Part shown: in pieces, positions 9,194 through 39,277 of the stretch | How the letters are laid out: every line of letters starts with the position of its first letter | How positions within the stretch are numbered: the first letter of the stretch is position 1 | The notes under the pieces: model-generated | What the model was told of the DNA's origin: nothing | The model's database searches: none | Seen by the model: only the letters and a program-made list of their open reading frames with translations | IMG/VR virus record: IMGVR_UViG_3300010158_000148 | Coordinates: 1 to 40,172 of that record | DNA length: 40,172 nucleotides | Strand: one strand, 5' to 3' | From: a virus | Program-made: the position numbers and the translations under genes

Positions 9194-9197
9194 TTAC

Positions 9198-10388: not shown

Positions 10389-10438
10389 TATATTCTCCTA
10401 AAACCATGGAACTTGTAGTTCCTTATTAGTATTATCTA

Positions 10439-12105: not shown

Positions 12106-12130
12106 TAGAATAATCAGTAGTATAAACTAC

Positions 12131-12137: not shown

Positions 12138-12280
12138 TCTTCCTCTTCGTAGTCGTCTTCTTCGTAAATGTCAGCAGAGCAAATAGGGCAGTAAACGATG
12201 TCTTCCAATCGTTCTTCTGACTTGAGTATAATCTTACCTCTTGCCTGACATTCATTACATTCAAAAATCTTAGTTGTCAT
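12134..12280 (-). CDS. Small zinc-ribbon protein with an acidic tail (48 aa)
   Basis: This frame reads MTTKIFECNECQARGKIILK, then SEERLEDIVYCPICSADIYE and an acidic DD/EEEE tail. The two pairs C8-x2-C11 and C31-x2-C34 form a zinc ribbon. The same layout occurs in small proteins of many T4-like phages. Its ATG overlaps the stop of the desaturase gene as ATGA. It may bind nucleic acid or act as an adaptor; no function is known. Confidence 0.75.
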   Translation of the reverse strand: MTTKIFECNECQARGKIILKSEERLEDIVYCPICSADIYEEDDYEEEE

Positions 12281-12981
12281 TGTTTAGTCTCGGCTAGTTT
12301 TAGTTTTTGTAGTATCTTAAACCACATCCATCCAATATCAAATTCAAACCATTTTCTACTTAATTTAGGGTTTGCTGGTTCAGCGTGGTGATTATTGTGT
12401 AGTTCTTCACCACCAATAATGATTCCGAACATTGATATGTTCTTTGAACGATCTTTGGTGTCCGTGTTACGATAACCAAACCAATGACCAACACCATTGA
12501 CAATACCTGCTGCCCAGAATGGAATCCAAATCATCTGAATACCCCATAGAAGCAGACCAATCCAACCAAACAAAATAATATTGATGGCTAACATTAGCAT
12601 AATACCTGCTCTGCTATGTTTAGAGTAAATGTTATTTTCCATCCAATCATCTGGAGTTCCAACTCCGTATTGAGCAATCATCTCTTTATTTTTACTGGCA
12701 TCATGGTAAAGTAAAGCACCACCGAAGACCACTCTCCAAATACCATACACATGAGGTGTGTGCGGATCACCTTCTTTATCAGAATTCTGATGGTGTTTAC
12801 GATGAATAGCTACCCACTGTTTAGTTACCATACCAGTAGTAAGCCATAACCAGAAACGCATGAAGTGTGCAACAACTGGATGAAAAGTTATTCCTCTGTG
12901 TGTCTGTCCTCTATGAAGATATAAAGTGACGCACACAATGGTAATGTGAGTCATAGCCAACAGATAGATTAACTCTATCAC
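12277..12981 (-). CDS. Membrane fatty acid desaturase (acyl-lipid/acyl-CoA delta-9 type)
   Basis: Di-iron membrane desaturase that introduces a double bond in a fatty acyl chain. The three histidine boxes are complete: HRGQTH (H23, H28), HRKHH (H60-H64) and HNNHH (H195-H199), plus the conserved NGVGHWFGYRN (H166). Hydrophobic helices lie at about 3-21, 36-53 and 126-160. At 234 residues it is shorter than bacterial relatives (about 300), mainly at the N-terminus, but no catalytic residue is missing. The start is GTG, overlapping the nrdB stop as GTGA. As part of the reductase operon it is an auxiliary metabolic gene likely to change host membrane fluidity; it also needs reducing power, as NrdB does. 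Confidence 0.92.
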   Translation of the reverse strand: MIELIYLLAMTHITIVCVTLYLHRGQTHRGITFHPVVAHFMRFWLWLTTGMVTKQWVAIHRKHHQNSDKEGDPHTPHVYGIWRVVFGGALLYHDASKNKEMIAQYGVGTPDDWMENNIYSKHSRAGIMLMLAINIILFGWIGLLLWGIQMIWIPFWAAGIVNGVGHWFGYRNTDTKDRSKNISMFGIIIGGEELHNNHHAEPANPKLSRKWFEFDIGWMWFKILQKLKLAETKQ

Positions 12982-23929: not shown

Positions 23930-24625
23930 TTAACAGTTCCACTTTCTAAGTGCGAGTGCCTTACGACTTGGCTCGCCATTTGGTTTCTTCATTGGACCTT
24001 CCATACCACCCATTCGTGCACAGAAAGACTTACGACGATTTGATGCTTTACTTCCAGCTTTTAATTTAGATGGAGGAGTTGTCACTGGTGCTTGTAAATG
24101 TGCACCCTTAGCATTGTATGCATCACGACCCTTTTGGGTTAGTCCACCAGTAGATGACTTATGTCCTTTAGCATCAACTGCATACTCTAATAATTGTTCG
24201 TCAGTAAACTCTTCAAACTTTTCCCAAAGAACTTCTGGATCAATATTGTGTAACAATGCTAATTCTTCAACAACAGATTCAATTAGATCAAACTGTGCTT
24301 CAACTTCTTCATTCTTTGGTTTCTTACCAGCTTTTTTCATGGCAATGGCAATTGCTGCTTGTTGAGCCATGTTAGCAGCCTCATTTGTTTGAGATGCCTT
24401 CAATGCTGCATCAGTTGGAGCACCTTCGCTTCCAGGTGTGCGCATCTTTTCACCAGAACCAGCTTTGATTCGTTTTTGTTTGGCATGGATATTATCCCAC
24501 AACCCACGCTTACCTTCTTTAATGCATGAACCTTCAGCACATGGTGTAGTTCCAGGTTTGCGCTTGTAACCTTTCCAACAGTTACAAGTTTCAGACAAAT
24601 GGTCTGAGAAAGATTTAAAATACAC
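23930..24625 (-). CDS. DUF6321-type protein (about 231 aa)
   Basis: N-terminal Cys-rich motif CNCWKGYKRKPGTTPCAEGSC and a C-terminal basic block with GLTQKGRDAYNAKGAHLQAP, then TTPPSKLKAGSKASNRRKSFCARM and ending RKALALRKWNC. These match a phage-encoded domain of unknown function, DUF6321 as I recall; the Cys spacing could bind zinc. Between them lies an acidic helix that looks like an insert shared with the neighbouring multidomain proteins. I place the start at GTG 24625, with AAAGGGAG upstream; an in-frame ATG at 24655 without a good ribosome site is the alternative. Confidence 0.72.
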   Translation of the reverse strand: MYFKSFSDHLSETCNCWKGYKRKPGTTPCAEGSCIKEGKRGLWDNIHAKQKRIKAGSGEKMRTPGSEGAPTDAALKASQTNEAANMAQQAAIAIAMKKAGKKPKNEEVEAQFDLIESVVEELALLHNIDPEVLWEKFEEFTDEQLLEYAVDAKGHKSSTGGLTQKGRDAYNAKGAHLQAPVTTPPSKLKAGSKASNRRKSFCARMGGMEGPMKKPNGEPSRKALALRKWNC

Positions 24626-26537
24626 TTGGCATACTCCCTTTAGTAACTTTACCATGAGACATTCTCGACTTCTCTACTTTACGAACACGAGAAACTAATT
24701 TTTGAGCAATGCGCCCAATAACATCTTTGCGTTTTGACATTACTTTTTCCATACGTTCTTTTTCACCAACGGAAATCTTAGAGTAATCACGACCACGTAG
24801 CATACGTTTCTTCATTAATTTAATGGCAAGACGACGTGCACGTTTATTAATAGTTGTTGGATTTGAGAAACGCTGTAATGCAATCCTAGTGGAGCGACCA
24901 CGTTTTGCAGAAGTCTTGCGTAGACGAATCTTACCTCTCATACGTTCTGTACGAGAAAGAACTTCCATCAAATCATACTTTGATTCTTCTTGTAGTGGTG
25001 GAATCTCTTCACCAGTATCATCATAGACTAAAACAATTTCGTCTTCTTCATAGAGATCTTCAATGTCTTCGTCAGTAACAGAGTTTACCATCTCATCAAT
25101 TTCTTGTTCAGTAAAATCTTCTTTGAAGAATGGATCGAATGGTTGATTGTAAGAAGTTTTATCTGTACCAACATCACATTCGCATTTAGGTTCACCACAC
25201 TCTGGACAAACTTCTTTCTTTTTAGTTTCTTCATGTAGATCTGCACCAACAGTTTTATGCGGGGATCTTTTAACATGATCTACAAAGTTCTTAGCATCAC
25301 TGTGCGATTTGAATTTGAAGAAAGCACCTTTATCTGAATGTCCATCGAATTCACCGCCATGTGTGTTAACACCAGACATTACATGCTCAACATCTTTATC
25401 ATGAGGTTGTTCGCCATACTTGCTACCATCATCCACATGAACGATATGATTCTCTTCTAATTCTTCTTTGTATTGACCATGTTTCTTTAGATCATTATCG
25501 AATTGTTTGGTAGTTGCTTTGTTGATACCTTTGAAACGCTTGTCACCTTTAGCATAGTTACCAGAAGCATCCGCTGCTTTTGCAGATGCATGTGATGCTG
25601 TTTTATATCTTGCCAATAGATCAGTAGACAATTCATCAATTTGAATTTCTTCTTTAACAGTATCTTTTGTATTGTAATTATAGAATGTCATGAACCCTTT
25701 AGTTTTACCCTTTGGTTCTTTGTCATCTTTTTTAGCACCAGTATCTGATGTACTTACATCAAGTTTATCAGTACCATTTGGTTGGATAACACCTTCGTTC
25801 ATTACTTTGTCTTCCATTGGTTGGACATCTTGAATCCATTTTGATACAAGTTTGCCAGATTCTTCTTTTAACAACAAATGATTTGAACCACGTTTTACAA
25901 TAGTAAATTGCTCGCCATTTGATTCTACAATATCACCTTCGTTAAAAATCTCTCCACGAAAATATTGTTCACGTAGTTTATCTTTAACTAGAACAAGTTG
26001 CTCTTTAACTGGATCTAAACCTAAACCCATGCGCACATCGTTCATTAAACGACGACCATCAAGTTCACGAATAGTGCTTGGCAACTTCTTCTTAAATTCT
26101 TCGTACAATCCTTTAACTGCCAACTGCTTCATTTTAGCATAATTAGCGTCAGGATTCTTCTCGTTGATTGCAATAATTTCGGTGTTTTCTTTAACAAGTT
26201 TCTTGAGTCCAGCAACTTGTTCGCTTCCAGCAACAATTACAATCTTTTTGTATTTCTTTGATAGTTCTTCAAGGAGATTGCTAATCTTGGACTCGTTCAC
26301 GGACTTGAACTTAGTCTTTGGGAACATTAACTTTAAGTAGTGTTCCTTTTTGTCTTCTTGAATAAGACTATCTTTAGTGGATGCGTAGATGACGTGGTCG
26401 GTATTCTTCTGTTCCGCCAGTCTATTGACAGTTTTAACCAACAACTCATGTGCGGTAGTTGGAGGATCAAAATCTCCAAGTGCACATACCAATGTAGTTG
26501 AGGGTAATTCTTTTATTAGTTGTCTATAATCTTTCAT
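24615..26537 (-). CDS. Multidomain protein: nucleotidylyltransferase-like domain, zinc motif and basic C-terminus
   Basis: Residues 1-150 look like an NMNAT/cytidylyltransferase fold: VCALGDFDPPTTAH (21-30, the HxGH-type motif in degenerate form), later IVIVAGSEQVAGL. A KOW/SH3-like module follows ('EGDIVESNGEQFTIVKRGSNHLLL'), then low-complexity linkers, CPECGEPKCEC (a four-Cys zinc motif), an acidic stretch, and a very basic C-terminus (RIALQRFSNPTTINKRARR; KLMKKRMLRGRDYSKIS) of a type also found in other aquatic-phage proteins. The start at 26537 (MKDYRQ) is preferred over the ATG three codons earlier, which has no ribosome site. Role unknown; the mosaic suggests a late, DNA-associated protein. 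Confidence 0.7.
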   Translation of the reverse strand: MKDYRQLIKELPSTTLVCALGDFDPPTTAHELLVKTVNRLAEQKNTDHVIYASTKDSLIQEDKKEHYLKLMFPKTKFKSVNESKISNLLEELSKKYKKIVIVAGSEQVAGLKKLVKENTEIIAINEKNPDANYAKMKQLAVKGLYEEFKKKLPSTIRELDGRRLMNDVRMGLGLDPVKEQLVLVKDKLREQYFRGEIFNEGDIVESNGEQFTIVKRGSNHLLLKEESGKLVSKWIQDVQPMEDKVMNEGVIQPNGTDKLDVSTSDTGAKKDDKEPKGKTKGFMTFYNYNTKDTVKEEIQIDELSTDLLARYKTASHASAKAADASGNYAKGDKRFKGINKATTKQFDNDLKKHGQYKEELEENHIVHVDDGSKYGEQPHDKDVEHVMSGVNTHGGEFDGHSDKGAFFKFKSHSDAKNFVDHVKRSPHKTVGADLHEETKKKEVCPECGEPKCECDVGTDKTSYNQPFDPFFKEDFTEQEIDEMVNSVTDEDIEDLYEEDEIVLVYDDTGEEIPPLQEESKYDLMEVLSRTERMRGKIRLRKTSAKRGRSTRIALQRFSNPTTINKRARRLAIKLMKKRMLRGRDYSKISVGEKERMEKVMSKRKDVIGRIAQKLVSRVRKVEKSRMSHGKVTKGSMPSVF

Positions 26538-26565
26538 ACGATCCATCTATAAAGTAGTACATACT

Positions 26566-26572
26566 TATTTAG
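26566..26572 (-). promoter_or_regulatory. T4-late-type promoter box (CTAAATA)
   Basis: Minus-strand CTCCTAAATAAG lies 12 nt after the stop of the 78-residue gene and about 28 nt before the multidomain gene start at 26537. It is followed at once by the inverted repeat AAGTA-TGTAC-TACTT (26566-26552). Confidence 0.6.
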
Positions 26573-26584
26573 GAGTTTGTATCC

Positions 26585-26821
26585 TTACATAGTGGATATT
26601 AGAGCCTGTGCTGCAGCAACGATCCAACGACAGGCGATTTCGTCTGAGGCTAGTTCCTGCTGAGCACGAATATCAGCGATTTCTTGTAGTAGGAATCCGT
26701 ATTCTTCGGAGGTTAGTTCTCCATTAGAGTAGTTTTCATGGATTACTAGAAGTTCGTTTGCCAATGCTGCTGCTGGACCACCAAGTCCAGCCTGTTCTCT
26801 TAATTCATTGAGGATACTCAT
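26585..26821 (-). CDS. Small conserved phage protein (78 aa)
   Basis: An all-helical protein opening MSILNELREQAGLGGPAAALANELL, with a Glu-rich centre (GELTSEEYGFLLQEIADI) and an Ala-rich last helix. The wording resembles small helical proteins found beside late genes in other T4-like phages; no function known. The ATG overlaps the lipoprotein gene stop as ATGA and the gene ends just before a late promoter box. Confidence 0.7.
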   Translation of the reverse strand: MSILNELREQAGLGGPAAALANELLVIHENYSNGELTSEEYGFLLQEIADIRAQQELASDEIACRWIVAAAQALISTM

Positions 26822-27165
26822 TTTCTACCTTTCCAAGCATCGATGGTAACATCGACTCTTGTTCTATTAAGTTTAACAATGCTTTCGCAGAATGTATTGC
26901 TCTTACTATCTTTTGCTTTCTTTAATGCTTCTTCCATTTTTCCAAATGAATCGGATTGTGGATCACCACGTTCTGTAGAGTAAACCTTAAGAGTTTCTAC
27001 TTTATCTAATACTGGTTGCCAGTTAGATTTGTCTTCACAACTAATTTTACTTAGTCCTACCTTAACATCGATTGCCTGACCAAACATAACTGGATCATGT
27101 GGCTTAGGAAAGATTACTGCACAACCAGATAATGCTACTGCTAAAACTAAAATTAGTTTCTTCAT
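26818..27165 (-). CDS. Phage lipoprotein (115 aa)
   Basis: The signal peptide MKKLILVLAVALSGC ends in a lipobox with C15. The mature part begins AVIFPKPHDPVMFGQAIDVKVG and has two more Cys (SCEDKSNW and FCESIVKL) that could form a disulfide. The 'PKPHDPVMF' and terminal 'AWKGRK' segments recur in phage lipoproteins of this size. It is coupled by ATGA overlaps to genes on both sides. It could act in superinfection exclusion or as an envelope factor; not determined. Confidence 0.75.
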   Translation of the reverse strand: MKKLILVLAVALSGCAVIFPKPHDPVMFGQAIDVKVGLSKISCEDKSNWQPVLDKVETLKVYSTERGDPQSDSFGKMEEALKKAKDSKSNTFCESIVKLNRTRVDVTIDAWKGRK

Positions 27166-28943
27166 TTCATAGCCTTTCTAAGATCGTTGTATAATTCATC
27201 TTTGTGTTCTGGTTTCATCTGTGAAGATAGATGTTTGTGGAATTCTTCTTTCTTACCAGATGATGCTAGTTCTCTTAACTTAGTTCCAGATACACCTTCA
27301 ACACCTTTGGCATTTTCGTCTCGTTTACCAGCGTTCTCAAAAGAAATATCTTTAAAGTTGTAGTAACCATGAGCACCCTTAACTCCATTATACTTCTTGA
27401 GTAACTCTGCCATTGGAGCACGATCTGAGCCACCAGCAAAGTGTAAATGCGTCACACCTTGTTTATGTAACTCAGACGCTTGATGCAATAGAGTTGGTTT
27501 ATCTTTATCTGCAACTACAACATTAGTTCCAGGGAATGCATTCTTAGCATGCTTTAGTTTTTGTTCTGGACTTAGAGGATTCTTACCATCTTTTGTATCA
27601 TGTGACCCAGATAAAACTAGAGTATGATCACCACCAAATTTCTTGGCAGTATCGTGCATATGTTGAACAAGTTTTTCATGACCAGCAGTTGGAGGATTCA
27701 TACGACCAAATGCCATTGTGTGATGAACTTCTTCTGTTTTTGGTTCACCACGATTCTTTAATAGATTTTGTTTTGCAAAGACTTTACGATTAACTAACTT
27801 GGTTGGCTCTGTCACACCATTGTGAGTGTGATTGTATACGAAACCCTCTGGCTTCGAAGCAACACCACCGATGGCATGAGCATAACCACCTTCATTTGAT
27901 TCTAAACTATTAACTAATTCATTCTTAGCATTCTGTAGATGACCATGCATCTTTAACAGATTATCATAGTGTTCTTTGTTCTTTTCAATATGTTTTAACT
28001 GTTTGTCAGCATCAGCAATAATCTCTTGCTTTTTAGCAGGTGTTTTAATCTTGTCGAACTTTTTCTTTAATTGACTAGAAACATGATTAGAGAAACCTTC
28101 AGTGGAAGGTGTTTCACCAGTACGAACTGTTTGATTGATGTAGGTTGCTAGGTGTCCTGCTTCACCACTATGTTCTGGATGAATCGCTTTATACATCTTA
28201 TCGCCATGTTCAGTATGAATGGCTTTGGCTTTACCCATCTCATCCAAGAATCTATCTTGTGCTTCTTTTGGATGGTGAACTAAACTTGTATCATAACTAG
28301 CAGTGTGATGGAAAACATCTGGATCATTACCGAAATCGCTTTCAGAAACATTACCAGTAGCATGCATATTTGCAAGGTTAGTTCCTTCATATTTTGTATG
28401 AGTAACTACACCAACTTTAGCCTTGCTAATCGCTTCTGCTTTTTTACCACGAGCACTATATGTAATAGTATTTGGTGTAAAGGATACAGTTCCGTCTTTG
28501 TTATTTTTAACATCAGGTTTAGTGAACATCATGTCACCTTGGAAAACTCCCTTCTTTGGAGCAATCTTTGGTAAATGTTGTAAACCTGCTTTTAGTTTTT
28601 CTACAAGACCTGGAGCATGTCCATGATTCTTTTCAACATCTTCAGGTGTATAATTTAACTTTGGATTTTTATTAAAGGCAGACTTTGAAGCAACAAAGAA
28701 TTTACCATTTTCTGGATTAGTTCCATAAACAATAGATGGTGAACCATCATACTTCATTGTCAATTTGTTTGATTGAGTTCTTTGGTTGATCTGATGATTA
28801 ACACCATGAAGTGCATTGTAAGCATGATTGAATCCATCGGCTCCATGGAACAATGGGCGATCTTCAGCGTGAGTAATATGTTTGAGTTTTGCACCTTCTT
28901 CTGGTGCAGCCTCAATTAAAAAGTTCTTGAATCCTAGTATCAT
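27162..28943 (-). CDS. RNA-ligase-like nucleotidyltransferase fused to an NMNAT-like domain (593 aa)
   Basis: The N-terminal half carries the nucleotidyltransferase motifs of the RNA ligase/capping superfamily: motif I K64-Y-D-G (MKYDGSPSIV, predicted adenylated lysine), a motif III-like GVFQGDMMF (132-140), motif IV EGFVY (366-370) and motif V K382...K387 (TKLVNRKVF). The spacing from III to IV is long, with a helical insert (about 235-345). The C-terminal part (from 410) is an NMNAT/cytidylyltransferase-like domain with GRMNPPTAGH (413-422) and GVSGTKLREL, the SxTxxR-type motif. I recall the N-terminal domain as DUF6267. The start is ATG 28943, whose MILGFKNFLIE opening is typical. Substrate unknown; two AMP-transfer domains in one chain suggest nucleic-acid end or cofactor chemistry. 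Confidence 0.75.
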   Translation of the reverse strand: MILGFKNFLIEAAPEEGAKLKHITHAEDRPLFHGADGFNHAYNALHGVNHQINQRTQSNKLTMKYDGSPSIVYGTNPENGKFFVASKSAFNKNPKLNYTPEDVEKNHGHAPGLVEKLKAGLQHLPKIAPKKGVFQGDMMFTKPDVKNNKDGTVSFTPNTITYSARGKKAEAISKAKVGVVTHTKYEGTNLANMHATGNVSESDFGNDPDVFHHTASYDTSLVHHPKEAQDRFLDEMGKAKAIHTEHGDKMYKAIHPEHSGEAGHLATYINQTVRTGETPSTEGFSNHVSSQLKKKFDKIKTPAKKQEIIADADKQLKHIEKNKEHYDNLLKMHGHLQNAKNELVNSLESNEGGYAHAIGGVASKPEGFVYNHTHNGVTEPTKLVNRKVFAKQNLLKNRGEPKTEEVHHTMAFGRMNPPTAGHEKLVQHMHDTAKKFGGDHTLVLSGSHDTKDGKNPLSPEQKLKHAKNAFPGTNVVVADKDKPTLLHQASELHKQGVTHLHFAGGSDRAPMAELLKKYNGVKGAHGYYNFKDISFENAGKRDENAKGVEGVSGTKLRELASSGKKEEFHKHLSSQMKPEHKDELYNDLRKAMK

Positions 28944-28949
28944 ATTACT

Positions 28950-28978
28950 ATTATACCTTAATTTGCAATATTTGTCAA
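28950..28978 (-). promoter_or_regulatory. Sigma70-type promoter, perfect consensus, placed at a start codon
   Basis: -35 TTGACA (28978-28973), 17-nt spacer, -10 TATAAT (28955-28950). The expected start of transcription (about seven bases on) coincides with the ATG at 28943-28941, leaving no room for a ribosome site. Just upstream, before the stop of the 450-residue gene, lies the 14-mer AATAACCCTACAGA (plus strand 28981-28994), also found at 4854-4867. Confidence 0.75.
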
Positions 28979-29004
28979 ACAATAACCCTACAGACTTGAG
29001 GGGA

Positions 29005-31168: not shown

Positions 31169-31897
31169 TTATTTAGGACGACGAGATGCTCGGATAGTTC
31201 TTTGGTATTTACGATCCCACTTGGCGATCTGCTGCATCAACTTAGGAATTGCAGCGTTATTACGGTAATCGTAATTGAATGCTTTGAGGATGTAGTTAAG
31301 AGTGGAAGAATCTTTAGAGTACTTTGCTCTAGTGATTAGTTCTTCTGTGGAGATGGTTGGTTTGTAGATTTTGAAATCAAGTAACACACAGTGGGCATAT
31401 GCCTGAATTTCATCGAACTCGGAAAGATATCTTCTCTCAATGTTCTTTTTTTCATGGTTTACTTTCTTGTAAGGAACGATGTAGTTTGACCACTCGTCTC
31501 CTCTTCTGTCGAACTGCATGAAGTGTATTAACTCATGCATGTGTGTCTGTAGTATGCGGTACTTAAACTTATTCCATGTAGTTTCAGTGAATGGAAACCT
31601 ATCGAAATTAGTTGTATATATCTGGATGCAACACTGTCTTTCATCTGGTCCATATTCACCACCGACAGCTACATAACTATCGTAGAGTTTTGCTTTGGAT
31701 TTTTGTGGAAGGAACTCGACTTTAGTTCTCCACTTTTTGAAGTAGTTTGAAAGACCCTTACTATCATTGCGATAGTTGTCTAGGTCTTTCCACACTTTTG
31801 ATGGTATATATTTCGCTCTGAATGGTCGCTCGTAAAAGTTGAGCAAGTCCATCCAATCGTAATTAGCGTTTTCTAGGAATTCAAAATTGCATGACAT
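31169..31897 (-). CDS. Putative zinc metallopeptidase (HExxH)
   Basis: Zincin signature H121-E-L-I-H125 (THMHELIHFMQF), followed by a candidate third ligand E163 in FDEIQAYAH (H169 is another option). Upstream strands (CIQIYTTNFDRFPF) and downstream helices fit a minimal metalloprotease fold; the protein is 242 residues with no signal peptide, so it is cytoplasmic. GGGATG precedes the ATG. Phage versions with 'HELIH..Q' and 'DEIQAYAH' recur in aquatic T4-like genomes without a known substrate; processing of a virion protein is one idea. Its stop codon overlaps a late promoter box. Confidence 0.72.
   Translation of the reverse strand: MSCNFEFLENANYDWMDLLNFYERPFRAKYIPSKVWKDLDNYRNDSKGLSNYFKKWRTKVEFLPQKSKAKLYDSYVAVGGEYGPDERQCCIQIYTTNFDRFPFTETTWNKFKYRILQTHMHELIHFMQFDRRGDEWSNYIVPYKKVNHEKKNIERRYLSEFDEIQAYAHCVLLDFKIYKPTISTEELITRAKYSKDSSTLNYILKAFNYDYRNNAAIPKLMQQIAKWDRKYQRTIRASRRPK
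31170..31176 (-). promoter_or_regulatory. T4-late-type promoter box (CTAAATA) with 9-bp inverted repeat
   Basis: Minus-strand CCTAAATAA overlaps the last codons and TAA of the metallopeptidase gene. It runs straight into the inverted repeat TAATATAGA-TAGTT-TCTATATTA (31171-31149). The nuclease-like gene begins at 31135. Confidence 0.65.
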
Positions 31898-31918: not shown

Positions 31919-32461
31919 TTACATCTTGAAATTACCTTCCAAGAATGCGAGTACCTTTCCCTGCTCCTCCAAGTTAGTGTTACTAAACTCAGTAATATAA
32001 GGCATCAGTTCAAAGTTTGATAGTAGATTACTATATTTAGTCGCACGACCTTTTAGGAAAGTCTCAGACTGGTCGGATCCTCGCTCGATGTAGCGTTCTT
32101 TTAGCGTGGAATCAGGTACTTTAAGATAAACCACTTGTAAATCAATACCTTGCATATTCATAGAAAACTCTAGGAAAGACTGGTTGAAAATTCGATCTCC
32201 TTCAAAGAGAATATTGGAGGTAGTTTCCTTAACGAACTCTTGTGCCACTGGCTGGACTGCCATTGATAGGCGATCTGTTCCAGCGAAGGTTTCACCATCC
32301 TCGTACTTACCTAGAATGTATAAGTCTAGGTCTTTACAATAGAGTGCAGGAAGCATTTTCTTTGGTTCGACTCTTTCCCAAGTCTTACCTTCCATGAACT
32401 TACGGAATAGAGTAGTCTTACCAGTTCCAGGTTGTCCACCAACAGCGATAATCTTACGCAT
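31919..32461 (-). CDS. P-loop kinase, candidate DNA-base or nucleotide kinase
   Basis: The Walker A motif GQPGTGKTT starts at residue 9 (K15), after MRKIIAVG. A central LFEGDRIFNQSF stands where small-molecule kinases hold the acceptor, and an Arg-rich lid follows (LKERYIERG; FLKGRATKY). At 180 residues it is a compact nucleoside/adenylylsulfate-kinase-like protein. The start at ATG 32461 has GAGG six bases upstream and overlaps the preceding stop by eight bases. Located in one operon with a TET/JBP-like oxygenase, it could be a 5-hydroxymethylpyrimidine DNA kinase of the type described for hypermodified phages; a deoxynucleotide kinase is the alternative. Confidence 0.72.
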   Translation of the reverse strand: MRKIIAVGGQPGTGKTTLFRKFMEGKTWERVEPKKMLPALYCKDLDLYILGKYEDGETFAGTDRLSMAVQPVAQEFVKETTSNILFEGDRIFNQSFLEFSMNMQGIDLQVVYLKVPDSTLKERYIERGSDQSETFLKGRATKYSNLLSNFELMPYITEFSNTNLEEQGKVLAFLEGNFKM

Positions 32462-32855
32462 TGCGAGCCTCATTAATTAGATCCTTTAATTCGCCTTCAG
32501 TGAACACCCATACTCTTCCAAGAAAGTGATGAGTGTCGCTATCAACATTATGTTTCTTTGTGAATGTTGCTTTCTTAATTATATCTCTTGCAAGATTCTT
32601 AGACAAGTTTTCTTTAATCTCATCTGCATAAGTTGGAACAGTTTCTCTTAATTTGGCTAACTCGAACTCTGCAACCTTATGCTCAACTGTAATCTTATTA
32701 AACGAATGTGTATCAAGAAAGTCTTCCATATCGAATCCACCAAATGCAAGTGCACTAGATCCAACTGCGGTATTATACATACCAGTAGTATTAGAAGAAA
32801 CTGTAATAGTTCCAACTCCAAGATTTCCATTACTGTCAAGTGTCATCGTACTCAT
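32454..32855 (-). CDS. Small phage protein with a fibre-like N-terminus and a helical core (133 aa)
   Basis: The first 36 residues (LDSNGNLGVGTITVSS, then NTAVGSSALAFGG) read like the Gly-rich repeats of fibre proteins. From residue 40 on the chain is helical (HKVAEFELAKLRETVP; KENLSKNLARDIIKKATFTKKH) and ends VWVFTEGELKDLINEA. The helical part belongs to a phage family I recognise by wording but not function. The joining looks like a fusion of two unrelated pieces. ATGA overlaps link it to the aGPT-Pplase-like gene, and the P-loop kinase starts inside its end. Confidence 0.7.
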   Translation of the reverse strand: MSTMTLDSNGNLGVGTITVSSNTTGMYNTAVGSSALAFGGFDMEDFLDTHSFNKITVEHKVAEFELAKLRETVPTYADEIKENLSKNLARDIIKKATFTKKHNVDSDTHHFLGRVWVFTEGELKDLINEARNA

Positions 32856-33871
32856 GTAAACATCTCCAATCCATTTAATATAGGTTCTTCATCATCAAAC
32901 ATCCAATCCATATTCTGCATTCCACCAGTGCTAAGGAAAGATGTAAATTTCTCTTTATCAATACCATGTCTATGGTCTAATCTAAAATCAATTGTTTCTT
33001 CTCTTGATTGCCATAGAACATTCCAATCAATACCATACCAACCATCTTTCTCGCACTGCATAATTTCTTCTGCTTGTCTATCAAGATAGTAACCAAGATA
33101 CCTTCCATGACTCTTTCTGAAAATCTTTTTGAAAGAACATAGGCAGGTTTCCATGGTAAAGTAATCTATTTGTGAGTCCAGTTCTGGGAATCTTTCTTTC
33201 GTCTCAACGAGAATGTCCCTCGCTTGTGCTTCCAGATTTGAATAATCGACTCCAGTGAGTTTTCTGTCCATATCGTCATCTTTCCCAATGGCGAGAAGTA
33301 ATCCATTACGATGAGAGCGAGACCCATCATAATCATCAAGCATGAGGCTAGTAGGAGTGATATGGACACCAGCAGTATGCTTAAGATGCTGAAGATAAAA
33401 CCAAGTGGAATAACGACCAAACTTATGCAACCCAGACTTAATGCCTGTCCACAGATTATTAAAGTTCTCTTCCTCAGATTGTCCATAGTATTCTTTCAGT
33501 TTTTCTCGTTGTGTTTTATTACCAATGAATTGCTGATAAGAAGCAAACATCGCAGGGAGATGTCCTTTGTTCCACTTTGTATCAGTCTGATATCTTAATC
33601 GTTTATAGTTGGCAGTGTTCCATTGAGTAATACGATCAACTGTTGCCAACTCAAAGTCAGGAAACTCATTCATGAGAATCCAAGCAGTTGGAAGATAGTA
33701 TGTATTACCATACAACCAACACAACCATAACTTCTGCTCATCATTATGCTCATATCGTTTGTTAAGATAGTTCGTTGCCCATACTGCTGGATCACAATCA
33801 TCATACTTCAATGACCATGCATACCAACGAATGAACGCTTCCCTACGATTTTGTTCTAGTCTATAATCCAT
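32852..33871 (-). CDS. aGPT-Pplase / amino-acid:DNA-transferase-like protein
   Basis: I assign this by overall wording to the alpha-glutamyl/putrescinyl-thymine pyrophosphorylase or amino-acid:DNA-transferase group of hypermodification enzymes, which act on phosphorylated hydroxymethyl-pyrimidine in DNA and attach an amine or amino acid. Typical segments are RREAFIRWYAWSLKYDDCDPAVW (residues 9-31), LWLCWLYGNTYYLPTAW, KFGRYSTWFYLQHL, SRSHRNGLLLAIG and a C-terminal DGWYGIDWNVLWQSREETIDF. It is 339 residues, helical, cytoplasmic. It overlaps its neighbours by 1 and 4 nt, downstream of the oxygenase, amidotransferase and GNAT genes. It ends in GLEMFT, a weak match to the clamp-binding tails of other proteins here. 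The family call rests on memory and needs an HMM search. Confidence 0.6.
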   Translation of the reverse strand: MDYRLEQNRREAFIRWYAWSLKYDDCDPAVWATNYLNKRYEHNDEQKLWLCWLYGNTYYLPTAWILMNEFPDFELATVDRITQWNTANYKRLRYQTDTKWNKGHLPAMFASYQQFIGNKTQREKLKEYYGQSEEENFNNLWTGIKSGLHKFGRYSTWFYLQHLKHTAGVHITPTSLMLDDYDGSRSHRNGLLLAIGKDDDMDRKLTGVDYSNLEAQARDILVETKERFPELDSQIDYFTMETCLCSFKKIFRKSHGRYLGYYLDRQAEEIMQCEKDGWYGIDWNVLWQSREETIDFRLDHRHGIDKEKFTSFLSTGGMQNMDWMFDDEEPILNGLEMFT

Positions 33872-34512
33872 TATAATAAAAACTCTTCAAGTGAAGGTTG
33901 TTCCATTAGTGCTTCTCTCAACCATGCCTTACCAACTGCATCAATTGCTGCTTGACTTTTTGCTCTTTTCTTTTCACCCCATTTATAGGATTCTAATCCT
34001 TCAGCACGAAATTGATCTCTTGCTTTGTATGGTGGCAGTGCTTGAAGTGGGCTGACAATAGCATTATTACGATAGTCTATTTGTTCCACTCTCGTAGGAA
34101 ATAATGGTTGGTCAGATCTAAGAGAGCCAGTTGGATCGACTGCCCAGAAGATGAGACCATTTTTATTGTGCCATGTAACGGAAGATGGAGTGCATGACAT
34201 TTTAAGTCGTTGGGTTTTGCGTTCTCCGACTGCATATTTGATCCATTCATCCCAGCATTTACTTGCATAACCATTTCCTTCTTGTCCTTCAAGTGTAACT
34301 ATCTCATATAGATTCGCATAACCATCACGATTGAATGTCGCAAAGATTAGCGAAACAACATCACCATTTACTTCAAGAGCCAGTGGTGGTGCTTTATCAT
34401 AATTGTGGAAACGATACCACAATGAATGTGCAGCCGATAAGAATTTGGTATTCTTACCAGCTGGACTATTTTTAATTAACTCTTCAACTCTTGTTGAATT
34501 AACAAAGTTCAT
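33871..34512 (-). CDS. GNAT-like acyltransferase with a clamp-motif-like C-terminus
   Basis: The central region has strands ending in YEIVTLEGQEGNGYASKCWDEW, the order of a GNAT motif A (Q/R-x-x-G-x-G/A, here QEGNGYA) that binds acyl-CoA. N-terminal strands (LALEVNGDVVSLIFATFN) agree. The start at ATG 34512 has GGTGGA upstream and overlaps the amidotransferase end by 14 nt; a longer in-frame reading exists. The last residues are QPSLEEFLL, similar to the SLEDFFG end of the polymerase fragment. Within the cassette it could acylate an amino group placed on a modified base; GNAT-like proteins are known in such phage clusters. Confidence 0.65.
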   Translation of the reverse strand: MNFVNSTRVEELIKNSPAGKNTKFLSAAHSLWYRFHNYDKAPPLALEVNGDVVSLIFATFNRDGYANLYEIVTLEGQEGNGYASKCWDEWIKYAVGERKTQRLKMSCTPSSVTWHNKNGLIFWAVDPTGSLRSDQPLFPTRVEQIDYRNNAIVSPLQALPPYKARDQFRAEGLESYKWGEKKRAKSQAAIDAVGKAWLREALMEQPSLEEFLL

Positions 34513-35191
34513 ATTGTAAGTCCACCGCATCTTCAATGACTTCTTTTTCAATTGTCATTGCGAGTTGGTCATCAAATGTAATGTAATGATTCATCAAAGT
34601 GTTAATCGGAAATCCTGGAACTTCTGCTCGTTTTGGAACATCAGCAGTAGAAGTAATTATACATCCATTTGAGATATTTGTCAAGTATAATGGACGCTTA
34701 CCATTGCGATAGAATCTAATAACTTTATCAACATGTAATTCAATAACTGCAAGACTTGAATCTTTCCAGCGAATCAATGGACTGATGCAATCCTCTGCTG
34801 TATGTAAAATCAATTCAGTATCGTTTTTAGTTTCACAATCATAACCATAGAGTTCTTTCCACTTCTCAGGTAACTCTTGAGTGATAACTCCATTGTGAAC
34901 TACTGAAAGATTCTCGTTGGCAATTGGTTGATTGAATTCTAAATCGCTAGTGCTATAACGACAGTGACCAATTAAATAAAGACTACCATCTTCATTCACA
35001 TAACTTGGAAAGTTGAATGGGAATTCATCGGCAGGAACTGGTCGCTTCTCAGTGATAATCTTTCCATGCTTAACATAGGAGATTCCAGTAGCGTGCATCC
35101 CTCGAATCTTAGATTCAAGGAACACACGATGAAGCATTAAGAAATCCTCTGCACGAGGTTCTTTAATAATCGCACCAATCACTGAACACAT
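34499..35191 (-). CDS. Class II glutamine amidotransferase (Ntn-hydrolase)
   Basis: Releases ammonia from glutamine through the N-terminal Cys2 (MCSVIGAI). The usual class II motifs are in order: RGMHATGISY (R, G), GHCRYSTS, VVHNGVIT and KNDTELIL (the D-T-E element). It is a stand-alone 230-residue glutaminase domain without a synthetase domain, so it must pass ammonia to a partner. The partner may be another protein of the cassette (an amine for the base modification), which is inference. It overlaps the oxygenase stop by one base. A perfect sigma70-type promoter lies inside its coding sequence. Confidence 0.87.
   Translation of the reverse strand: MCSVIGAIIKEPRAEDFLMLHRVFLESKIRGMHATGISYVKHGKIITEKRPVPADEFPFNFPSYVNEDGSLYLIGHCRYSTSDLEFNQPIANENLSVVHNGVITQELPEKWKELYGYDCETKNDTELILHTAEDCISPLIRWKDSSLAVIELHVDKVIRFYRNGKRPLYLTNISNGCIITSTADVPKRAEVPGFPINTLMNHYITFDDQLAMTIEKEVIEDAVDLQYELC
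34656..34684 (-). promoter_or_regulatory. Intragenic sigma70-type promoter, perfect consensus
   Basis: -35 TTGACA (34684-34679), 17-nt spacer, -10 TATAAT (34661-34656), entirely inside the amidotransferase gene. Transcription would begin near 34649 and give an independent mRNA for the GNAT-like, aGPT-Pplase-like, linker and kinase genes. Confidence 0.75.
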
Positions 35192-36516
35192 TAGAAGAAT
35201 CCTTCAAGTGAATTTGCCTTTTGTGATTCTGGGTGATACTTCATTAGTATATCATTACCAAGTTTACTCTCAAGGTATTCATACCATTCTTCTGATTCCC
35301 ACATAGAAGAACTAACACCATTCCAAAGATGTCGTTGAGAACCATCTTCATATTTTTGGTCTGGATGTTCTTTGTTAAGTCTGCGGTGTTCAACAAAGTC
35401 ATAACGACAATCTTCGTATTGTTTTGAACCCAACTCAAGCATCTTCTCACGGAAGTAAACAACTAATGAGATTCGCTCTGCTTCTTCATCGAGCAATTGA
35501 ATCTGAGTATTGCCATGCATCACTTCATGATTGTTAATGAGTAGCAAATCTCCAGGTCTTGGATTAACAGCAACACGATACTCTGGTGCAACCAAATAAC
35601 AACCTGTATAGTTACCATTGTTTGTTAGAGTCAATAGATTGGATAGACCAGCAGTAAAGTCACCTGCATCGTAGTGACAAGCAGTTCTGAAAGACTTATT
35701 AACAGTAACAGTAGTGAATGGAGTTTCTGGAACTAAGAATGCAGGATCCAGTTTCTTTGCTGCTTCCATTTGATTGTTGTATCTCCATGGCAACAAGTCT
35801 TTGAAACCCTGCGCAAGTTGTTGCAAGAATGGATATGCCATGGCAAACTTTGCTGGTTCACGAGCAGTATAAGATGTTGCACGACCATAAGGAATGCGAG
35901 GATAACGATCGAACCAACCAGCAATACCAGACATAACACCATTGGCATAGGTAGTTGCGCAGACATATGCTTTTTCTACTCGTCTTGCTTCGATAACCAT
36001 ATCAGATGCATCTAATTTACGAACTTTCTCAACCCACTCATTGAAAACAAATTTATCTTTCTTAACTGCTTGGATACCCCAAACATTATTTCTGGTAGAT
36101 GGTTTATCAGTCTTACCTTCATGCTTGGCTTTAATAACATCAATTGGATCTCCGTCCAGTGATGCCTTTGGATTCAAGAAGTAATCAATAATTTCTGATT
36201 CATATTCAGTGACCCACTCACGATTACCCAACTTCTCTGCTCTTGGACCTGCAGCCATACCTCTATTCTGAGTTTCGGTTGCTGCTTCACGAAGTCCAAT
36301 GTATGCTTGATCTTGTTGTTCTTTTGTAAAGTAATTCTTACGGAACTTCAAAACGATTCTCTCTTCAGAGTATGTCATCTCTGGATGTCCAGGAATTTCT
36401 GGCATATAAACATCACAGTCCTCTTCAATGAGGAAATCATAATGTGACTCATCTGGAAATTGTCCCATCATGTGAGACATATCATGTTTTTGTTTTGCTA
36501 CGATTACCTTAGTCAT
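35191..36516 (-). CDS. TET/JBP-like 2-oxoglutarate/Fe(II) dioxygenase (DNA pyrimidine hydroxylase)
   Basis: Predicted to hydroxylate the methyl group of thymine or 5-methylcytosine in DNA, the first step of base hypermodification. The catalytic core is H281-Y-D283 (CHYDAGDF), H334 (HEVMHGN) and the 2OG-binding R348 (ERISLVVYF). Before it, YGRATSYTAREPAKF (210-224) and LPWRYNNQM fit the TET/JBP pattern of a conserved Arg/Thr element, then 'lP..y..Q'. The N-terminal 200 residues are family-specific and hold no recognised domain. The last six residues, SLEGFF, resemble the polymerase clamp-binding tail. It is the first gene of the cassette, starting nine bases after the helicase gene. Thymine or cytosine substrate cannot be told; no C5-methyltransferase lies in the window. 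Confidence 0.8.
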   Translation of the reverse strand: MTKVIVAKQKHDMSHMMGQFPDESHYDFLIEEDCDVYMPEIPGHPEMTYSEERIVLKFRKNYFTKEQQDQAYIGLREAATETQNRGMAAGPRAEKLGNREWVTEYESEIIDYFLNPKASLDGDPIDVIKAKHEGKTDKPSTRNNVWGIQAVKKDKFVFNEWVEKVRKLDASDMVIEARRVEKAYVCATTYANGVMSGIAGWFDRYPRIPYGRATSYTAREPAKFAMAYPFLQQLAQGFKDLLPWRYNNQMEAAKKLDPAFLVPETPFTTVTVNKSFRTACHYDAGDFTAGLSNLLTLTNNGNYTGCYLVAPEYRVAVNPRPGDLLLINNHEVMHGNTQIQLLDEEAERISLVVYFREKMLELGSKQYEDCRYDFVEHRRLNKEHPDQKYEDGSQRHLWNGVSSSMWESEEWYEYLESKLGNDILMKYHPESQKANSLEGFF

Positions 36517-36524: not shown

Positions 36525-37916
36525 CTAAAACTTAAATCCGTCAAACGATTCTGCTTTTTGTCTGCGACCAAAATTACTTTTATCAAACATTGGTTCATCG
36601 TCATCGTGCTTTCCTGAATCACTTAGCGTTTGTGCCGATGCTTCTACATCATACAGTTTCATCTTTGCTCTATCAACCCCAATAACAAATCTCTTATAGA
36701 ATCCTGGATCGTTATAGCGATTCTTCAACTGTTTAACAATAATCTGATTCAATCCTTCCAACTCTTCATTGCTGACCAAAGCAAACATAAAGTCAGCTGT
36801 CGCTGGCAAACCAAAAGATTCAGAGGTATCTTCAAGTCCTGGATCCGAGTTTGTGAATCCAGAACGAGTCGTTTGAGTGGCTGATACAATGGGAACATTA
36901 TACTCAACTGCCAATCCTCTTAACTCTTCTGCAATGCTCTTAATATATGTATAAGAGTTAATACTTCCACCTTGTTTCATTCGTTGACTCGCACAAATAT
37001 TGAGATAGTCAATGAAGATAATATCAGGTTTGAATTCTCGTTTCAACTTTAGTTCTTCCAGCAAAGCACGGAAGTGACCAGAGTGGGCACCAGCAGTTGG
37101 GTATTCTTTGACAATTAGTTTACCTTTAGTTTTAGCCGTAATCTTAGCAATACGACTTTCATAGATATCCCTGTCAATAACTTTTAGTTCATCCATGGTT
37201 AGGTTAAGAAGATTCGCATCAATCCTTTCAGCGATACGCTCTTCTGCCATTTCCATAGTTATGTATAAGACATTTTTACCTTGAGTTAGGCAACCTGCAC
37301 CCACGTGACACATAAACAAAGACTTACCAACACCAGTGCCAGCAAGACAAATATTAAGTGTTTTCTTTGATAGTCCACCCTTAGTGATTTTATTGAACAT
37401 GTCAAGGTCGAATGCAACCTTCTCTTCCACCCTATGATAAAAATCATACCTCTCATTGTGGTCATCAAGATAGTCATGCCCAATATGATTATCAAATGAA
37501 ACGGCAAGAGCATCAGAAAGAATAGAAGGGATCGCATCTTGCGTATGTTGCTTGTCGTTGCCGTCAATGATTCTGATTGCCGAGAGAACTCCATTATAAA
37601 TTGCCCTATCTTTACAAAACTTTTCAGTATGTTCTAACATCCAGTCTTCATTGACTGGTTCCTGACTCAATGTGCCGATAAAGTCGCCAAGTTCAGATAA
37701 CTCTTTATCGTTGAGATCTTTCCTGTTGCTAATTTCAATCTGTAGGATTTCTTTGGATGCTGGTTTGTTATACTTCGTGAAGAAAGAAACAATCTCGTCT
37801 GCCAAGATTACTTCTTTGCGCTCTGCAAAATATTCTTTCTTGATAAATGGGATTACTTTACGACAATAGTTCTCATCAAATATCAGATTGCTCAGAATCT
37901 TTTGTTCTATTCGCAT
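36525..37916 (-). CDS. 41: Replicative DNA helicase, T4 gp41 / DnaB family
   Basis: Hexameric 5'-3' helicase that unwinds the fork and associates with the gp61 primase. The Walker A motif is AGTGVGKS (just before the middle of the protein), Walker B is DIIFIDYLNIC, followed by the DnaB-type QMT-like element SATQTTRSGF and an arginine-finger region near LKNRYNDPGF. Length (463) is close to T4 gp41 (475). ATG 37916 is the likely start, preceded by GGCGGAAC. It ends AESFDGFKF. A perfect promoter about 210 nt upstream, inside the preceding gene, could drive it. Confidence 0.94.
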   Translation of the reverse strand: MRIEQKILSNLIFDENYCRKVIPFIKKEYFAERKEVILADEIVSFFTKYNKPASKEILQIEISNRKDLNDKELSELGDFIGTLSQEPVNEDWMLEHTEKFCKDRAIYNGVLSAIRIIDGNDKQHTQDAIPSILSDALAVSFDNHIGHDYLDDHNERYDFYHRVEEKVAFDLDMFNKITKGGLSKKTLNICLAGTGVGKSLFMCHVGAGCLTQGKNVLYITMEMAEERIAERIDANLLNLTMDELKVIDRDIYESRIAKITAKTKGKLIVKEYPTAGAHSGHFRALLEELKLKREFKPDIIFIDYLNICASQRMKQGGSINSYTYIKSIAEELRGLAVEYNVPIVSATQTTRSGFTNSDPGLEDTSESFGLPATADFMFALVSNEELEGLNQIIVKQLKNRYNDPGFYKRFVIGVDRAKMKLYDVEASAQTLSDSGKHDDDEPMFDKSNFGRRQKAESFDGFKF

Positions 37917-38208
37917 CAATTTCTGTTCCGCCTGTATATGTTAAATTGTTTTCTTGGATGCCTTCATGAAGCAATTCTTCCAAGATTTTACCAATGTATT
38001 CTTCAAATGGTTTCTTATTGGTGAAACCCTTTCCACCATCATCAAGAATTTCATAATCAAATTTTAGATGAATGGTTGAGTCGATTTCATCTTCTTCAAA
38101 CTCAACCTTACCATAAGCATATATTATACCCTGCCATGGCTCTTCTGTCAACTTTATCGCATCAAGTCCACTATATTTGGACTCCACTACAACATAAGGT
38201 TTACTCAT
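37876..38208 (-). CDS. Conserved small protein between uvsX and gene 41 (110 aa)
   Basis: Opens MSKPYVVVESKYSGLDAIKLTEEPWQGI, with a beta-rich N-terminal half (YGKVEFEEDEID; IHLKFDYEIL) and an acidic helical C-terminal part. It is in the position often filled by a small protein of unknown function in aquatic T4-like phages. It overlaps uvsX by 8 nt and gene 41 by 41 nt. A recombination accessory role (UvsX or helicase partner) follows only from its place. Confidence 0.72.
   Translation of the reverse strand: MSKPYVVVESKYSGLDAIKLTEEPWQGIIYAYGKVEFEEDEIDSTIHLKFDYEILDDGGKGFTNKKPFEEYIGKILEELLHEGIQENNLTYTGGTEIDANRTKDSEQSDI
38123..38151 (-). promoter_or_regulatory. Intragenic sigma70-type promoter, perfect consensus
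   Basis: -35 TTGACA (38151-38146), 17-nt spacer, -10 TATAAT (38128-38123), lying inside the 110-residue gene. It would start transcription near 38116 and supply helicase and modification-cassette mRNA without uvsX. Confidence 0.72.
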
Positions 38209-39277
38209 CGAACTCTAATTCCTCTAATGCTTTATCAAGATCATCTTCTTGCATCATTTGTCCACCTTGACCAATTGAATATTTGTTCTTTACAAAATCA
38301 TAGAATGATTTGCTTGTAAGAATTGACAACCAAAAGTCTTTATCATCAGTTTCTTTGACACGATATTTCTTGGTTTCTACTTCTCCAGTATCTGGATCAC
38401 ATTTGGAATACCAACCATTGGTGGGTTTAACCACATGCTTGGATTCAAGAGCAAGATCCAACAAACCGCTCCACTTACTAAGACCACCATCAAAAGATAC
38501 GCTAACAGGTATCTTAGATTTTTCTTTAACATAACGACTCTTCTCTACGTTAATAATAAAATTGTATCCTACGATTTCAGTACCTTCTTTTTCTTGCTGG
38601 CGACCAAGAATGTAAACATTATCTGCTGAATACATTGCACCAGTACCACCACCAACGATTGCTTTCGGGAACATACCAATTTCCATGTAGGTATGGTTCA
38701 CTACAACCAGTGGAATGTCTTTAAGGTTCAAGTGTGGGGTTACCATACGGAACAATGACTTCATCTGTTTTGCTCTTGACATATCTGCAACAGACTTACC
38801 TTCCATGGCATCTTCTACTTCTTTCTTAGAAGCAAGATTACCAATAGAGTCAATAACAATAATTAGGTGGTCACCACGATCTACATTGGACAACTGTTGC
38901 ATAATATCGAACTTCAATTGCTCAACATCAGTGAGTGGAGTATGAACAACACGCTTTGTATCAATACCAAATGTATCGAAGTAAGACTGCGGAGTACCGA
39001 ACTCTGAGTCATAGAATAATAATGCTGCATCTTCATACTTGTCCATATAGGACTTAGCCATTAACAATGAGAACGCAGTCTTAAAGTGTTTGCTTGGACC
39101 AGCCCACATTGTAATACCTGGAGTTAATCCACCATCAAGACGACCAGATAAAGCCACATTGATGATTGGAACAGAAGTAGGAATCATATCCTTCTTCTTA
39201 AAGAACTTTGATTCAGATAGAATCGCAGAGTCTTTGATAGTTGTGTTCTTTTTAATTTTGTCTAGTATGCTTGCCAT
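38201..39277 (-). CDS. uvsX: UvsX RecA-like recombinase
   Basis: ATP-dependent strand-exchange protein for recombination-dependent replication. The P-loop is GPSKHFKT (60-67), matching the T4 form GPSKSFKS rather than the bacterial one; YDSEFG and IIVIDSIGNLA (Walker B) follow, and the ssDNA-loop region MEIGMFPKAIVGGGTGAMYSAD is typical. Length (358) is close to T4 UvsX (391). The C-terminus is acidic (LEELEFDE), as in RecA proteins. AAAGG precedes the ATG. It is followed by its usual neighbour, gene 41, after one small gene. Confidence 0.95.
   Translation of the reverse strand: MASILDKIKKNTTIKDSAILSESKFFKKKDMIPTSVPIINVALSGRLDGGLTPGITMWAGPSKHFKTAFSLLMAKSYMDKYEDAALLFYDSEFGTPQSYFDTFGIDTKRVVHTPLTDVEQLKFDIMQQLSNVDRGDHLIIVIDSIGNLASKKEVEDAMEGKSVADMSRAKQMKSLFRMVTPHLNLKDIPLVVVNHTYMEIGMFPKAIVGGGTGAMYSADNVYILGRQQEKEGTEIVGYNFIINVEKSRYVKEKSKIPVSVSFDGGLSKWSGLLDLALESKHVVKPTNGWYSKCDPDTGEVETKKYRVKETDDKDFWLSILTSKSFYDFVKNKYSIGQGGQMMQEDDLDKALEELEFDE

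Follow-up and report, generated by a model that had tools for sequence, protein, structure and literature searches.

Six tightly joined genes on the minus strand of IMG/VR record IMGVR_UViG_3300010158_000148 (positions 31,919-36,516 of the 40,172 nt analysed, hereafter the window, a fragment of ~40 kb of its phage genome) form a cassette that almost certainly modifies pyrimidines in DNA by hypermodification, and by which the phage's own thymines are very probably oxidised, activated and then given a nitrogen-containing group. Post-replicative thymine hypermodification with a glutamine-dependent amination step is the best explanation of the cassette, and one to which we give about an even chance of being right. 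The genetic linkage, the protein families and the active-site residues are established, and the enzymatic steps are predicted from sequence. The core of TET/JBP oxygenase, ADDT transferase and P-loop kinase already has precedents as a predicted thymine-hypermodification pathway (phages Hydro and Tonitrus); what appears to be new is a virus-specific glutamine amidotransferase (GAT) tied to the ADDT, a single GAT change on the ADDT tree, a lysine (K99) in the transferase, and a slot in which GNAT and amidoligase enzymes are swapped.

A conserved six-gene cassette beside replication genes

The cassette runs TET/JBP, GAT, GNAT, ADDT, small protein and P-loop kinase, an order that recurs in dozens of IMG/VR contigs and is therefore not due to chance. 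With the start of the GNAT gene corrected (see below), the TET/GAT and GNAT/ADDT genes each overlap by 1 nt, GAT/GNAT by 14 nt, ADDT/small protein by 4 nt and small protein/kinase by 20 nt, or by 8 nt if the kinase begins at its second Met, as its start may be at 32,461. An initial annotation of this DNA had listed five proteins, mostly joined by overlaps of 1-14 nt; all five families were recovered on the minus strand by Pfam matches, and the small protein (133 aa, 32,454-32,855, minus strand) had been left out of the list. This protein, whose position between ADDT and kinase is conserved in relatives, has a variable Ser/Thr/Gly-rich N-terminus and a conserved C-terminal half, and gave no Pfam match.

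The first gene (35,191-36,516, minus strand) encodes a TET/JBP-family 2OG-Fe(II) oxygenase of 441 aa (Tet_JBP, PF12851, 4.4e-27; PHROG 24024), whose predicted reaction is hydroxylation of the thymine 5-methyl group in DNA. It also matches, weakly, PHROG 6059, to which Hydro gene 2 belongs. The HxD...H and R of the oxygenase are intact: the residues named in the initial annotation (H281, D283, H334 and R348) did not vary among 17 aligned sequences, Cr30, DLP_6 and C48C1 included. The last gene (31,919-32,473, minus strand) encodes a P-loop kinase of 184 aa, a predicted 5-hydroxymethyl-pyrimidine DNA kinase (Ploopntkinase3, PF18751, 1.1e-10; PHROG 800, 6.5e-15). The PHROG names of these two proteins, 'queuine tRNA-ribosyltransferase' and 'terminase small subunit' respectively, were set aside as misleading, as the same proteins match the Tet_JBP and kinase Pfam models. 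HMM matches place both the oxygenase and the ADDT inside modification families.

Upstream on the same strand lies a DnaB/gp41-like replicative helicase (36,525-37,919; PHROG 19, 8.5e-125), followed by a UvsX recombinase (38,201-39,277, minus strand; PF21134, 8.8e-15; PHROG 97) that supports the assignment of this uncultured phage as T4-like. On the other side is a metallopeptidase-like protein of 242 aa with an HELIH motif (31,169-31,897, minus strand), a syntenic neighbour kept downstream of the kinase in relatives; it had no convincing family match in Pfam or PHROG, and nothing was found that ties it to the pathway.

A glutamine amidotransferase genetically tied to the DNA transferase

The second gene (34,499-35,191, minus strand) encodes a virus-specific, stand-alone class II glutamine amidotransferase (Ntn glutaminase) of 230 aa (GATase_6, PF13522, 4.5e-10), with the N-terminal Cys nucleophile, the oxyanion Asn-Gly and the glutamine-binding Arg and Asp. 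It has no synthase domain, fusion to which is usual in class II but not universal. Conservation of C2, R78, T81, N100, G101 and D124 was 97% or higher across 71 non-redundant relatives, and the best PDB matches to its AlphaFold model (pLDDT 82) were GlmS, PurF and EgtC, with GlmS and PurF scoring above EgtC; the glutaminase call of the initial annotation is borne out by both the residues and the fold. Searches of PDB sequences with GAT, ADDT and kinase profiles returned nothing useful, and no isolate phage carrying the GAT branch was found. Nor did we find an earlier report of a glutaminase in such pathways in the literature covered, which was without Lee 2018, Lee 2022, Iyer 2013 and Burke 2021.

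An ADDT was present at 41/41 non-redundant GAT-anchored loci, as was a GNAT or an amidoligase, and a GAT without an ADDT was never seen among TET loci with long flanks. Such a genetic tie is expected if the GAT feeds the transferase. The ADDT of the window (aGPT-Pplase2, an amino-acid (or amine):DNA transferase by family; 339 aa; 32,852-33,871, minus strand; PF18724, 8.9e-22; PHROG 3271, 6e-55) keeps the family-invariant D97, R153, E241, C245 and K248 and belongs to a GAT-linked subtype marked by K99 and Y154. K99 replaces an active-motif arginine otherwise invariant in ADDTs and was found in 62/62 GAT-linked members, with R in 8/8 GAT-less members plus two further. These two positions (K99/R and Y154/L,M) were retained as diagnostic; T242/S was rejected as alignment-dependent, ViI-like rows reading T. 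On the ADDT tree the GAT-linked members form a single clade, for which one GAT gain suffices, and K99 could be a mere clade trait.

Between GAT and ADDT, one gene slot is occupied by a GNAT at some loci and by an Amidoligase_2 enzyme at others. In the window it holds a probable GNAT-family acyltransferase of 213 aa (33,871-34,512, minus strand), whose Pfam match is barely over cut-off (Acetyltransf_1, PF00583, 3.8e-4) and whose model has a pLDDT of only 58, with GNAT-superfamily enzymes making up the top 50 PDB matches listed. Its start, listed at 34,551, was moved to M14 of that ORF, at 34,512, since stop codons precede this position in many relatives. No relative of it was found among 50,697 isolate phage records. 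The initial annotation had recognised the GNAT-like protein, and its exchange with amidoligase is an addition to that account: on the ADDT tree the two were swapped ~11 times, with 3 order changes. No column of the GAT or ADDT alignments separated GNAT-type from amidoligase-type loci, as would be expected if the GAT acts with the ADDT before capping.

Comparison with known systems

The core of Rhodococcus phage Tonitrus has been described as thymidine hypermodification (PMC11955845). The actinophage cassettes (Hydro genes 1-4, Tonitrus) consist of ParB-TET/JBP-aGPT-Pplase2-5hmU kinase, and genes 2-4 of Mycobacterium phage Hydro encode homologous TET, ADDT and kinase in the same order as in the window, sharing PHROGs 3271 (ADDT) and 800 (kinase, Hydro gene 4), with TETs that cross-match between 24024 and 6059. 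However, the Hydro ADDT is only ~27% identical to that of the window and has R at the K99 position, and GAT, GNAT and amidoligase were not seen in Hydro or Tonitrus, whereas the window has both GAT and GNAT. These cassettes also begin with a ParB-like protein, whereas no ParB-like nuclease-domain protein was found by Pfam at the head of the window cassette. By eye, a ParB-like DGNHT motif could be recognised in c3, a protein of ~440 aa encoded at some of the sister loci.

As is predicted for the window, phages ViI, M6 and phiW-14 pair kinase activation of hydroxymethyl-U with an ADDT-family transferase, and gp204 of the ViI-like Shigella phage Ag3 matches the window ADDT family. GNAT-type acetyltransferase tailoring is known in thymidine hypermodification by these three phages. 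Their 5hmdU probably arises at the nucleotide level, with a thymidylate-synthase (TS) homologue making 5hmdUMP, whereas in the window a TET stands in that step's place, no such homologue was found in the large relatives searched, and the GAT is extra. A 5hmdU DNA kinase followed by an amine transferase has been proposed for M6/ViI-type phages (PMC6449724).

Caulobacter phage Cr30 has the same three families, TET (gp129, 45% identical to the window's), ADDT (gp123) and kinase (gp114, 39% identical), but its genes are scattered, no GAT or GNAT of the window families was found in that region, and it has a TAGT-like glycosyltransferase beside the ADDT and a thymidylate-synthase family gene of its own. 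In LUZ24-like Pseudomonas phages (PaP3) a class II GATase adjoins Amidoligase_2, as in amidoligase-type sister loci; this GAT is ~24% identical to the window's and lies within a longer protein, and no TET, ADDT or 5hmU kinase is annotated in its neighbourhood. The T4-like Methylophilales phage Melnitz has a TET/JBP gene and a related kinase (38% identity to that of the window), but it also has a C5-methyltransferase, with no ADDT or GAT found near its TET, and it is probably a cytosine-based counterpart. A 427-aa neighbour in Melnitz was considered as an ADDT and rejected; it matches the c3 profile.

Predicted pathway and possible role of the glutaminase

In the predicted pathway, the TET/JBP enzyme would act on thymines within DNA and oxidise their 5-methyl group, yielding 5-hydroxymethyluracil, as suggested by its family and the absence of other routes, and the P-loop kinase, judged by its family, would phosphorylate or pyrophosphorylate the hydroxymethyl group. 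The ADDT would then displace the phosphate with a nitrogen nucleophile, which in the GAT-linked clade may be ammonia (or an amide-derived amine) that the GAT frees from glutamine; 5-aminomethyl-dU would be the product. The GNAT could acylate this amine, for example to 5-acetamidomethyl-dU, and in sister phages the ATP-dependent Amidoligase_2 enzyme could cap it equivalently. The modified product most likely protects virion DNA against host nucleases. The HMM families support the outline given in the initial annotation, of oxidation, activation and addition of an amine or amino acid.

That the GAT is the nitrogen donor to the ADDT is an evenly balanced proposition. Tentatively, and at somewhat under an even chance, we propose that the two form a two-component glutamine-dependent amidotransferase aminating the activated base in DNA to 5-aminomethyl-dU, which interchangeable enzymes would then cap, either a GNAT using acyl-CoA or an amidoligase using ATP; the amidoligase may add amino acids or peptides to the DNA. 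The ammonia model is weakened by the fact that class II GATases usually act fused to, or complexed with, their synthase, yet no GAT-ADDT or other fusion was seen among the relatives examined. The GAT-amidoligase pairing is also compatible with other roles of the GAT.

ADDTs are known to use amino acids, and the ADDT here might likewise join a free amino acid to DNA, following the known ADDT pathways, with the GAT and slot enzyme acting in tailoring: once the amino acid is in place, GAT and amidoligase would amidate its carboxylate, while in the window type the GNAT would acetylate the amino acid and the GAT do some amide chemistry. Hypermodification from 5hmdU, where its chemistry is known, relies on amine or amino-acid transferases (PMC6449724), and Amidoligase_2 with GATase II is a recurrent pair, for example in LUZ24-like phages (PMC3890496), but the GAT is equally kept in GNAT-type loci, which are without an ATP-dependent ligase (101/144 redundant loci), none of its residues distinguishes the two types, and the ADDT motif change tracks the GAT and not the slot enzyme. 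We consider attachment of a free amino acid unlikely, if credible enough to be weighed. It is improbable that the GAT is an EgtC-like gamma-glutamyl amidohydrolase, trimming a gamma-glutamyl group attached to DNA or a precursor, and not an ammonia donor; the structural matches do include EgtC, which likewise stands alone and has ~230 aa, and the amidoligases of sister phages share a broad superfamily with gamma-glutamyl ligases, but EgtC ranks below GlmS and PurF, and the window type keeps the GAT with no obvious gamma-glutamyl-attaching enzyme.

Thymine as the likely substrate

Several absences and one presence make thymine the likely substrate base of the pathway. The C5-methyltransferase that the initial annotation had suggested looking for was found in none of about 90 to 94 records with this TET family, by a search that recovered that of Melnitz as a positive control, and this favours thymine over cytosine, although relatives' records may be incomplete and the absence is not proof. 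No thymidylate-synthase-type hydroxymethylase (PF00303) was found in a 163.6-kb relative and 25 further large records, Cr30 being the sole exception with a TS-type gene, and ThyX was present in 12/16 large relatives. Some phage TETs act on 5mC, and the related Melnitz phages have a C5-methyltransferase gene next to those for TET and kinase. Oxidation of 5mC to 5hmC, then hypermodified, is nevertheless very unlikely here, given the missing C5-methyltransferases, the lack of an ADDT or GAT near the Melnitz TET by profile search, and the assignment of the Hydro and Tonitrus precedents to thymine. Elsewhere among phages, GATase and amidoligase genes do co-occur where peptide or amide chemistry is predicted, but a target other than DNA (small molecule, protein or RNA) is hardly to be expected here, as TET/JBP, ADDT and kinase are DNA-modification families, fixed in the cassette beside replication genes.

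Implications for phage DNA modification

With a cap enzyme that has been repeatedly exchanged around a fixed core, the cassette resembles a modular kit for chemistry, the exchange being plausibly driven by host defences. A glutamine-splitting enzyme may make phage DNA modification depend on glutamine. If the amination model is true, DNA would be a further molecule known to accept nitrogen from glutamine directly, and 5-aminomethyl-type bases with swappable caps would be made across a large group of uncultured phages. The cassette is also a possible source of new enzymes for DNA labelling.

Cassette layout and neighbouring genes

The cassette lies on the minus strand of the IMG/VR virus record (40,172 bases), downstream of genes for UvsX and a DnaB-type helicase, neighbours that indicate a T4-like phage. 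It comprises a TET/JBP oxygenase (TET; 35191-36516), a class II glutamine amidotransferase (GAT; 34499-35191), a GNAT (33871-34512, start corrected), an amino-acid:DNA transferase (ADDT; 32852-33871), a 133-aa small protein (32454-32855) and a P-loop kinase (31919-32473). Scanning with the TET protein gave 326 relatives, 80 of which were kept, and the order uvsX, 110-aa protein, DnaB, TET, GAT, GNAT, ADDT, small protein, kinase, 242-aa protein was retained in all contigs among these that spanned the region.

Extra genes in relatives' cassettes enter at fixed junctions. Between TET and GAT, the loci L027 (8029-8640; PHROG 81), L031, L053, L071 and L081 carry an additional 2OG-Fe(II) oxygenase (PF13759) that is not a TET; between GNAT and ADDT, many relatives, including L011 (5332-6060), have a 242-aa protein without a recognised family, which appeared restriction-endonuclease-like, by eye only, and could be a nuclease tied to the modification. 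A radical SAM protein (PF04055) precedes the kinase in L078 (6777-8201), where it also has a weak B12-binding match, and one lies near the kinase end in L247 (8002-8172). In L242, a flavin-dependent (tryptophan-type) halogenase gene (2724-4295; PF04820, 1e-104) separates the small protein from the kinase in a cassette with GAT, GNAT and ADDT, which makes a halogenated base or precursor possible. The window's small protein has a hypervariable, Ser/Thr/Gly-rich and weakly tail-spike-like N-terminus of about 37 aa and a conserved C-terminal half. Elsewhere in the window (24615-28982), two long proteins of 606 and 643 aa each match phage cytidyltransferase PHROGs along part of the protein.

The TET-ADDT-kinase core is of a known kind, since mycobacteriophage Hydro carries the three in the window's order with the same or cross-matching PHROGs, such a set in Rhodococcus phage Tonitrus was termed thymidine hypermodification (PMC11955845), and the proposal for M6/ViI-type phages is that a 5hmdU DNA kinase phosphorylates 5hmdU within DNA before transferases modify it (PMC6449724). 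Public records of such genes mislead (Caulobacter phage Cr30 gp114/gp129, Hydro genes 2-4), naming the kinase a terminase small subunit or adenylate kinase and TET an SNF2 DNA repair protein or oxidoreductase.

GAT accompanies ADDT

The structure model of GAT (pLDDT 82) resembles GlmS, PurF and EgtC, and residues C2, R78, T81, N100, G101 and D124 were at least 97% conserved across 71 non-redundant relatives. The family appears to be viral, with at least 578 matches in IMG/VR versus one in 84,980 prokaryote genomes (one per species). That sole relative comes from an Actinomycetota MAG (RGSB01000076.1, a contig of 3.6 kb); it is probably phage and possibly a hint to the host. Among 50,697 phage records the GAT branch was not found in isolates, the nearest GATs being below 30% identity.

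ADDT was present in 41/41 non-redundant GAT-anchored loci with enough context, ADDT-less loci being excluded only where flanks were short. When TET was the anchor and each non-redundant locus had to extend 4.5 kb or more to either side of it, the corrected split was 23 with GAT and ADDT, 0 with GAT alone, 3 with ADDT alone and 14 with neither (Fisher 3e-9, computed on 23/0/2/15, where Cr30 was wrongly scored as ADDT-less owing to the minus-strand placement of its genes within its locus; the conclusion is the same at 23/0/3/14). The occurrence of GAT thus tracks that of ADDT rather than that of TET.

The ADDT motif TD.R has lysine (K99) in all 62 GAT-linked ADDTs and keeps arginine in every GAT-less ADDT tested (Cr30, Ag3, Cygsa01, Montesquieu, Hydro, L125, L129, L179, VPALA and phiEa2809); in parallel, GR(L/M) becomes GRY (Y154) in GAT-linked ADDTs. 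As GAT-linked ADDTs form one clade, this pattern is suggestive, rather than proof, of changes tied to GAT.

A swappable position between GAT and ADDT

The gap between GAT and ADDT is filled by GNAT or by a protein of about 291 aa (group c0). Amidoligase_2 was matched by all 27 scanned c0 members at E ≤1, some weakly (best 6e-9), and the c0 profile aligns with orf46 of the LUZ24-like Pseudomonas phage PaP3 (E 1.4e-5). Across 144 GAT+ADDT loci, a tally counting some contigs twice, 101 had GNAT alone, 37 had c0 alone, 4 had both (their GNAT matches being weak, E 7e-6 to 3e-9) and 2 had neither; non-redundant GAT-anchored loci gave 19, 19, 3 and 0, respectively. Some c0 loci also carry a second, different GNAT-family protein (c4). 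A 75-row ADDT tree, a quick one with long outgroup branches, needs 11 changes in this position, 3 in gene order and a single one in GAT presence. No column of the ADDT or GAT alignments separated GNAT-type from amidoligase-type loci, which suggests that the enzyme in this position works downstream of a common GAT/ADDT product.

Which base is probably modified

The 4 + 34 + 46 + 10 records carrying this TET family, some of which may be fragments, yielded no C5-methyltransferase in a search that detected the enzyme of Methylophilales phage Melnitz as positive control. No thymidylate-synthase-family gene was found in relatives outside Cr30, though some records may be fragments; ThyX was present in a 163.6-kb relative and 11 of 15 further large relatives. 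We lean strongly towards thymine as the 5-methylpyrimidine available to this TET, short of proof because of those possible fragments, and cytosine as the modified base is the less favoured alternative.

TET loci of other types were also seen. Melnitz (MZ577098.1, 3457-7537) has consecutive genes for a C5-methyltransferase, an unannotated TET/JBP (PF12851, 3.6e-11), a protein of the c3 type and a kinase of the 5hmPyr type, with no ADDT or GAT nearby; this is probably a cytosine-based hypermodification cassette, of which we found no mention in the Melnitz paper (PMC9004378). TET genes of T4-like phages that have no ADDT or GAT beside them often lie near glycosyltransferase-like or NDP-sugar genes (C48C1, 8923-12385; DLP_6; L120, L134 and L162), with no C5-methyltransferase in the tested records of this group; these perhaps make base-J-like glycosylated hydroxymethyl-U.

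Proposed pathway

A single gain of GAT coincides with the altered ADDT, and GAT is retained beside either GNAT or amidoligase and has an intact glutaminase site; for these reasons it is a putative nitrogen supplier. Alternatively, ADDT may add an amino acid that is amidated later, or GAT may carry out EgtC-like trimming. Families, synteny, co-occurrence and residue patterns are what was observed, and every chemical step is our inference. On the nitrogen-supply reading, TET would oxidise T to 5hmU, the P-loop kinase would activate it, and ADDT would let an amine displace the activated group, with nitrogen from GAT, yielding 5-aminomethyl-dU. GNAT or the amidoligase would then acylate this product, which would account for their mutual exclusion.
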